This document shows, piece after piece, positions 184 to 1,005 of a DNA stretch of 36,665 bases; position 1 is the stretch's first letter; every line of letters starts with the position of its first letter. The notes beneath the pieces are model-generated. The model had not been told where the DNA came from. It did no database searches and saw only the letters and a list, made by a program, of their open reading frames with translations. A program made the translations under genes and the position numbers. Location: NCBI GenBank assembly GCA_021845575.1, contig JAJZVQ010000004.1:1-36665 (forward strand), written 5' to 3'. Origin of the DNA: Microcaldota archaeon. Lineage in GTDB: Archaea > Micrarchaeota > Micrarchaeia > Micrarchaeales > Micrarchaeaceae.

Positions 184-1005
184 ATGAAAAATTCCGCCCA
201 CACTAAAAAGAATTTAAAGAAAAAAATCAAAGCGAGCAAGAAATCCGCAAAGGTAGCAAATAAAAAAATCAAAACTAAAATGGTTACTAATAAAACCACA
301 GCAAAAATAAGACATAAAGTCGTTGTTGCAGGCAAGAAATTGGAAGCCAAAGCAAAAATTGCAAGTCATAAAATAAGGAACGCCGAGAAAAAGGCAGGAT
401 CAAAAACCAAAATAATTAAAGTAAATAAAAAACAACAGTCTACTAGGAGGAAAAAAGTTGTCGTATCAATCCCGACGCAAAAAGAAGTAAATATTGCATT
501 AGATATGTTGATGAAAAATAAATTTGCAACAGAATATTTGCAGAAAAACGTGAGCAAAGACGTCATGGAAGTTATTAATTTATTGAACACCCCAAGGACG
601 GATGAGCATATATCATTACAGTTAGAGATGAAAATAAATTCAGTAAGAAGAATATTAAATATAATGCAAGGCTACGGAATTACTAATTATTATATATCAA
701 AGAATACAAATGGATGGCTTTCCTTCGCTTGGTATATAAACACAAATAAAATAAATTCCTTTTTTGATTATATCAATTCAATAAAAAAAGAGGAAATAAC
801 CGTAACCGAAGACTGCAACGATTATTTTGTATGTGATAAATGCTATGACAAAGATAAGCTCATATTCCAATTTGATGCGGCATTCGAGTCTGGTTTCAAA
901 TGCAGTATCTGCGGAAGTAAATTTAAAAGAATAAATAAGGAGGATGCAAAGAAACTCGCTTTTGGCAAGGATTCGTCAGAAGAAAAAATTTACAATAAAA
1001 TTTAA
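184..1005 (+). CDS. tfe: Transcription factor E alpha subunit (TFE) with Lys-rich N-terminal tail
   Basis: TFE stabilises the open complex of archaeal RNA polymerase together with TBP and TFB. The C-terminal two thirds match TFE: a winged helix at about residues 125-205 (with VRRILNIM and the Trp-containing wing near NGWLSFAWYI) and a zinc ribbon with CX2C pairs at 217/220 and 240/243. Residues 1-95 are an unusual extension made mostly of Lys, Ala, Thr and Ser, resembling a histone H1 tail. The frame is also open to an ATG at 64, but that reading runs through a perfect hairpin. The ATG at 184 follows a plausible TATA box and is preferred. The protein is 273 residues, against about 170-190 for typical TFE, and the excess is the tail. 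The identity is firm; a DNA-binding role for the tail is inference. Confidence 0.85.
   Translation: MKNSAHTKKNLKKKIKASKKSAKVANKKIKTKMVTNKTTAKIRHKVVVAGKKLEAKAKIASHKIRNAEKKAGSKTKIIKVNKKQQSTRRKKVVVSIPTQKEVNIALDMLMKNKFATEYLQKNVSKDVMEVINLLNTPRTDEHISLQLEMKINSVRRILNIMQGYGITNYYISKNTNGWLSFAWYINTNKINSFFDYINSIKKEEITVTEDCNDYFVCDKCYDKDKLIFQFDAAFESGFKCSICGSKFKRINKEDAKKLAFGKDSSEEKIYNKI

Follow-up and report, generated by a model that had tools for sequence, protein, structure and literature searches.

The window described here (the whole stretch of DNA that was analysed) comprises 36,665 nucleotides of a Microcaldota archaeon of the family Micrarchaeaceae (assembly GCA_021845575.1, contig JAJZVQ010000004.1, positions 1 to 36,665 of the forward strand), and corresponds to contig C12 of the genome handled below as G000 (779 kb, 94 % complete). 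At 184 to 1,005 it carries a gene for the archaeal transcription factor TFE-alpha, 273 amino acids long, whose product begins with a polycationic arm of about 98 residues. TFE is usually regarded as a compact two-domain factor, and, going by our literature search, a TFE-alpha with a polycationic N-terminal arm is undescribed; no account of a basic N-terminal TFE extension was found, subscription journals and preprints lying outside the search. Judged by its substitution pattern and start signals, the tail is genuine: it is translated and under selection, and what selection keeps in it is charge, not sequence. Its most likely role, at about even confidence, would be to tether to DNA, by electrostatic attraction, a TFE that has no detectable TFE-beta partner. 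All features below lie on the forward strand.

Identity and domain organization of TFE

The original prediction had named the gene as TFE from its letters alone, and this is borne out. The protein is a genuine TFE-alpha with a winged helix and a four-cysteine zinc ribbon; it matches PF02002, the TFIIE_alpha winged-helix domain, with 28.1 bits against a gathering cut-off of 22.9 (E 1.9e-6). The NCBI TFE equivalog models NF004910 (E 8.2e-19) and TIGR00373 (E 3.4e-16) match the open reading frame (ORF) at 184 to 1,005 below their curated cut-offs, the two scores being 59.1 against 149.5 bits and 67.5 against 180 bits. The TIGR00373 cut-off is reached by none of the 117 genomes of the class and by just one of the four control archaea matching the model, which points to a strict cut-off and not to a misidentified protein. 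The top Foldseek match is 6kf4_G, a chain of a Thermococcus kodakarensis RNA polymerase (RNAP) complex named Transcription factor E (E 6.8e-8), followed among others by 1q1h (E 2.4e-4), with human TFIIE also among the top folds. The nearest solved sequences are the TFEs of T. kodakarensis, Pyrococcus furiosus and Sulfolobus, which are the nearest folds as well.

The tail occupies residues 1 to 98 (184 to 477), the extended winged helix and linker helix residues 99 to 205 (478 to 798), and the zinc ribbon residues 206 to 260 (799 to 963), with cysteines at 217, 220, 240 and 243. In the AlphaFold2 model, block means of the predicted local distance difference test score (pLDDT) are 40 to 52 for residues 1 to 90, 82 to 97 for 91 to 200 (mostly above 90), 67 for 201 to 210 and 84 to 91 for 211 to 260, and helix 1 begins at residue 99. 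Across 15 aligned sequences Y164, G165, W178, F181 and W183 of the winged-helix and linker region do not vary; C217, C240 and C243 are invariant and C220 is at least 90 % conserved. The tail is barely alignable in the same sequences, only Met1 and a loose stretch just ahead of helix 1 being conserved. Residues 1 to 102 contain 32 K, 4 R, 11 A, 10 V, 8 T, 8 I, 7 S, 3 E and no D, for a net charge of +33, and the tail is 31 % Lys, 11 % Ala and 1 % Pro. The roughly 95 basic residues first proposed ahead of the winged helix, at 184 to 480, thus agree with the 98 or so disordered residues found here, the coordinates being correct to within about one codon.

The window protein shares the extended winged helix, linker helix and zinc ribbon with archaeal TFE-alpha and eukaryotic TFIIE-alpha; it differs from archaeal TFE-alpha in its added disordered basic residues ahead of helix 1 and in scoring far under the NCBI cut-offs. 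Position 5 of TIGR00373 aligns to residue 116, which places the beginning of the known family at about residue 111. In the solved archaeal TFEs, chain residues 17 to 21 align to profile positions 115 to 117, which puts their N-termini close to window residue 99, and the winged helix of P. furiosus TFE is given as residues 5 to 86 in the available text of PMC7704642. That known archaeal TFE lacks such a region, as had been claimed, therefore holds for the T. kodakarensis, P. furiosus and Sulfolobus structures, the evidence for it being those solved structures, the family models and the domain borders given in the literature.

Occurrence of the tail

The tail was sought in the TFEs of related genomes, as the original prediction had suggested, and was counted as present at a net charge of +12 or more, a threshold of our choosing. 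Tail starts were picked to maximise charge, which may lengthen tails and favours some GTG and TTG starts. By this measure 60 of the 61 uncut TFEs of the window's order are tailed, 37/38 in the window's own family (f1, where a contig end truncates a further locus, L027) and 23/23 in another family of the same order (f2). The one tailless TFE among them is the divergent L058, which has a charge of +5.

Across the class a TFE match was found in 109 of the 117 genomes (a phylum-wide draw added only genomes of this class), and 70 of 107 uncut TFEs are tailed, a count that omits L027 and L098 (contig ends) as well as any second TFE copy and all genomes from beyond the class draw. By family the tailed TFEs number 20/21 in f1, 11/11 in f2, 7/7 in f7, 15/16 in f14, 5/6 in f12 and 3/9 in f15, where one of the three, L096, resembles read-through of upstream DNA. 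Every one of the few TFEs of f3, f8, f10, f17, f18, f22 and f23 is tailed, and there are no tails in f4, f5, f6, f9, f11, f16, f19, f21, f24 and the counted copy of f13. Some tailless families have short, weakly basic leaders (up to +9 in f5, +9 in f24, +11 in f13). Tails among TFEs counted as tailed are 43 to 253 amino acids long, the longest (L125, f14) having 253 residues and a charge of +104. One genome, G078, encodes a pair of TFEs (loci L118 and L148) whose tails differ in length, with 100 amino acids (+26) in the one and 22 amino acids (+11) in the other, and offers a natural comparison.

In the parts of the proteome that were sampled such N-termini are uncommon. Two samples of mechanically called ORFs of at least 80 amino acids were scanned, 65 ORFs from 64 kb of the window's own genome and 344 from 400 kb (40 %) of one relative. 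Ranked by the charge of a 70-residue N-terminal stretch, TFE comes first in each sample (+24 and +23, against a median of +4), and stretches with a charge of at least +15 occur in 2/65 and 4/344 ORFs. When any position is allowed, TFE keeps the top rank among the ORFs of its own genome (+25). The idea that basic N-termini are common throughout the proteome was considered and rejected, no such pattern being seen in the 64 kb of the window's genome or the 40 % of the relative.

Translation start and upstream DNA

The gene is preceded by a promoter-like element at 134 to 148, seen by eye and in a motif scan, which consists of a purine-rich sequence resembling a TFB recognition element (AGAAAG, 134 to 139) and a TATA-like TTTAAATA (141 to 148). 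With the usual TATA-to-start spacing, transcription would begin near 170. A five-codon ORF (ATG AAG GTC TTG ATA TGA, 170 to 187) overlaps the ATG at 184 with its stop (ATGA), and a weak Shine-Dalgarno (SD)-like GAAGGT lies inside it at 172 to 177. The in-frame alternative ATG at 64 is an unlikely start, sitting at the foot of a hairpin followed by a T-run (67 to 96) that probably marks where the preceding gene ends.

The tail could be an artefact of start assignment, the true protein beginning downstream of it; Met codons are present within and after the tail, and the SD of the window's own ATG is weak. The start signals of the order speak otherwise. In a comparison confined to ATG starts, which covered 54 of the 60 tails of f1 and f2 (the remaining six lacking a suitable ATG or sufficient upstream DNA), a TATA-like motif lies upstream of 40/54 tail-start ATGs against 14/100 internal ATGs, and an SD-like motif upstream of 30/54 (24/36 in f1, 6/18 in f2) against 17/100, the internal ATGs lying within coding DNA with a composition of its own. 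The TATA-like box suits ATG 184, the same architecture recurs in two families, and the substitution ratios of the tail given below also argue for its translation. A start after the tail, near residues 90 to 130, had been named at the outset as what would overturn the tail, and we consider it very improbable indeed.

Some upstream ORF ends near the TFE start in 13/54 loci, the window's included, and there is thus no general conservation of it. The five-codon ORF at 170 to 187, near the probable transcript start, may be a coupled leader peptide.

Selection on the tail

The ratio of nonsynonymous to synonymous substitution rates (dN/dS) of the tail is 0.17 to 0.32 in 11 distinct pairs with a tail identity of at least 0.63, against 0.01 to 0.07 for the core; examples are L002/L003 (dS 0.81, dN 0.14) and L020/L021 (dS 1.27, dN 0.27). 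Over 101 tails, treated as independent although sequences from the same clade are not, GC content at third codon positions (GC3) correlates negatively with the share of K (rho -0.45) and positively with that of R (rho +0.44), and shows no such relation with net charge per residue (rho -0.02, p 0.85) or K+R (rho -0.17, p 0.08).

These figures bear on the view that the tail is a weakly selected, low-complexity extension that drifts, has no specific job and carries charge for solubility. Drift would suit the unconserved sequence, the wide range of lengths, the repeated changes of state on the tree and a dN/dS several-fold above that of the core, up to 0.60 in distant pairs. It sits poorly with purifying selection on the tail, with a charge that stays constant while Lys and Arg exchange with GC, with retention in 60/61 uncut TFEs of the order and with the rarity of such N-termini in the proteome samples, and we regard it as distinctly unlikely.

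Proposed role of the tail

The TFE winged helix is placed near the upstream edge of the transcription bubble and the non-template strand in the available text of PMC3223566 and PMC7704642. A flexible polycation leaving helix 1 could hardly miss the promoter DNA, and an electrostatic tether is thus the simplest reading. We infer that the Lys/Arg-rich arm would leave helix 1 and touch nearby promoter DNA independently of sequence, that this contact could strengthen the binding of TFE to the pre-initiation complex through a higher local affinity, and that the arm might help to hold the complex open where TFE-beta is undetected. No TFE-beta gene above the family cut-off was found in the 117 class genomes, two weaker matches (G103, G134) apart, and a review (PMC7289017, in the part available) describes DPANN archaea as without TFE-beta. 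With TFE-beta undetected, an extra DNA grip on TFE-alpha is plausible. So is non-specific DNA binding, which the original prediction had raised as a possibility.

Several observations weigh against the tether. The TFE-beta model detected just one control genome, Sulfolobus, and the call of absence is no better than the model; tailless Micrarchaeota are likewise without detectable TFE-beta. The tail is absent in 37/107 TFEs, and the TFE-core tree, a quick build from 177 columns in which 48 of 104 inner branches have support below 80, implies at least 11 switches between presence and absence; over long times the tail is therefore dispensable. Two more distant pairs have a higher tail dN/dS (L006/L012, 0.45; L041/L044, 0.60), and two membrane-like proteins of the sampled relative have internal stretches of +26 and +24, against +24 for its TFE. 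To these are added the small share of f2 tail starts with an SD-like signal, the coding composition around the control ATGs and the non-independence of sequences from the same clade in the GC3 comparison.

Two simpler links to TFE-beta were rejected. The tail as a straightforward TFE-beta replacement does not discriminate, TFE-beta being undetected in tailless lineages too, and a TFE-beta fusion is contradicted by the lack of any RNA_pol_Rpc34-type Pfam match at E<=0.1 and by the predicted disorder of the tail.

The tail might instead chiefly bind something other than the promoter, such as nascent RNA or an acidic surface of RNAP, TFB or Spt4/5, or drive condensation of initiation complexes. 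Polycations generally bind polyanions, the tail is predicted to be disordered, and TFE competes with Spt4/5 for clamp binding (PMC3223566, available text); the 15 aligned sequences, on the other hand, show no conserved tail motif of the kind that a specific protein partner usually leaves. Such a target appears unlikely, although it is the least unlikely of the alternatives. As an electrostatic tether, the tail would offer a testable way for TFE-alpha to work without TFE-beta, and the repeated gain or loss of a charged arm of about 45 to 250 residues in a large group of archaea with small genomes amounts to a natural experiment on flexible polycations in the simplest TBP/TFB/TFE system.

Chromatin proteins

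The original prediction had likened the tail to histone H1 and proposed that it might compensate for missing chromatin proteins. In the strong form of this idea, TFE doubles as an abundant DNA compactor in place of absent histones. The likeness to H1 fails in any specific sense. At E<=0.1 the window TFE has no Pfam match to the globular domain of linker histones (Linker_histone, PF00538) or to the bacterial H1-like proteins Hc1 and Hc2. The arm is N-terminal, and H1 tails are richer in Ala and Pro; the resemblance is one of charge alone.

Histone matches (PF00808 at E<=0.001, a criterion that excludes that of G074 at 7.3e-4) were found in 89/117 class genomes, eight genomes being counted as histone-less by elimination. 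No match occurs in any class-draw genome of f14, f19, f8, f10, f22 and f23, some of them by elimination, while matches in other families are strong. Compensation is favoured by the tails of five of the six families in which most rows have no PF00808 match, and by the longest tails being those of f14. A histone of the HAKRKT type found in relatives is also missing from the window's own genome: of 14 histone-fold loci in f1 and f2, nine have HAKRKT, one HAKRET and four are of a second type, and the window's genome has one 74-amino-acid histone-fold gene and no clear HAKRKT-type copy, which may reflect a gap in the 94 % complete assembly.

Against compensation, f19 has neither histone match nor tail, and 49 of the 70 tailed TFEs come with a histone match. 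Tail and histone loss are not significantly associated (Fisher p 0.16 when counted by genome and 0.15 when counted by family); in the tree-based contrast, which has almost no power, histone presence differs on average in about 0.5 of 6 independent tail changes. Alba was matched in 108/117 class genomes, the window's included; MC1, sought as another chromatin protein, was found in 0/117. A published table (PMC6136690, available part) counts Micrarchaeota among histone holders. Compensation is accordingly unsupported rather than excluded, and TFE as a chromatin protein is improbable.

An apparent tandem Alba fusion was also seen, with two Alba matches in one frame of 207 to 218 amino acids (G018:C15, G128:C6, G001:C7, G002:C3).

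Comparison with known systems

Linker histone H1 and the bacterial proteins Hc2 and AlgP have a Lys-rich disordered arm in common with the TFE tail, and H1 likewise joins its arm to a winged helix. The tail differs from all three in being N-terminal, poor in Ala and Pro, and joined to a TFE that has a zinc ribbon, with no family match at E<=0.1. Rpo13 of the Sulfolobales RNAP, whose Lys-rich C-terminus reaches into the DNA entry channel (PMC2675907, available text), is analogous in logic and a precedent for the proposed tether, with a Lys-rich terminus near DNA; it is an unrelated protein, and its terminus is C-terminal, near downstream DNA and far shorter. The Rpo6 of Bathyarchaeota, Thaumarchaeota and Promethearchaeati has, according to the available part of PMC13257274, lineage-specific, unstructured, charged N-terminal extensions without sequence homology; these resemble the TFE tail in being lineage-specific charged N-termini, but belong to another subunit and in Promethearchaeati carry both charges. 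DNA binding by the eukaryotic origin recognition complex is said to depend on basic residues (PMC4601075, available text), in replication and not in transcription.

TBP and TFB in the same lineages

Among the PF00352 matches listed, single-repeat TBPs ("half-TBPs") occur in many families (f1, f2, f4 to f7, f9, f11, f13, f15 to f18, f21 and f24), mostly in frames of 93 to 150 amino acids, a few reaching 182 and one 274. At least 19 of 22 f1 genomes have two such matches, those of the window's genome being L254 (G000:C14:2459-2704) and L262 (C42:12031-12276); other loci in point are L248 to L252, L256 to L258, L261, L263 and L264. Two repeats in one frame, mostly of 186 to 226 amino acids, are found among the matches listed in f3, f8, f10, f12, f14, f19, f22 and f23. 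The sequences of 13 single-repeat and two two-repeat loci were read. It seems likely that the half-TBP works as a dimer; no description of it was found in the literature search. A comparison of DPANN archaea (PMC8407392, available part) reports TFB and TBP to be conserved in about 88.8 % of the genomes that it tested.

The N-termini of 36 TFB loci were examined. TFBs of f1 have a basic extension before the zinc ribbon that is smaller than that of TFE (45 to 91 amino acids in 11 of 12, with a net charge of +1 to +11, and 20 amino acids in the twelfth), and an AT-hook-like RGRP motif is present in 5/12, that of the window's genome included (loci in point: L231 of G000:C44, L276, L280, L282 and L284). 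Three f2 TFBs have an extension of 30 to 63 amino acids with little charge (0 to +5), and those of most other families start about five residues or less from the zinc ribbon, the exceptions being f6, f8, f16 and f19.

It is conceivable, although doubtful, that Micrarchaeota have rebuilt initiation in such a way that presumably dimerising half-TBPs, together with the TFB and TFE tails of the window's family, shift some of the hold on the promoter away from shape recognition and towards flexible electrostatics. TFE tails do not follow TBP type: they are present with full TBP (f3, f8, f10, f12, f14, f22, f23) and lacking in many half-TBP families. A tie between TFE tail and TBP type was rejected, there being no consistent pattern over the families.

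Neighbouring genes

Downstream of TFE lie tandem AAA_17 (adenylate-kinase-like) genes at 1,043 to 1,648 and 1,727 to 2,299. The pair has in common a 156-bp block that is 87 % identical (about 1,391 to 1,545 and 2,054 to 2,208) with only short matches elsewhere, and judged from this pattern of identity the block is a product of recent gene conversion or partial duplication.
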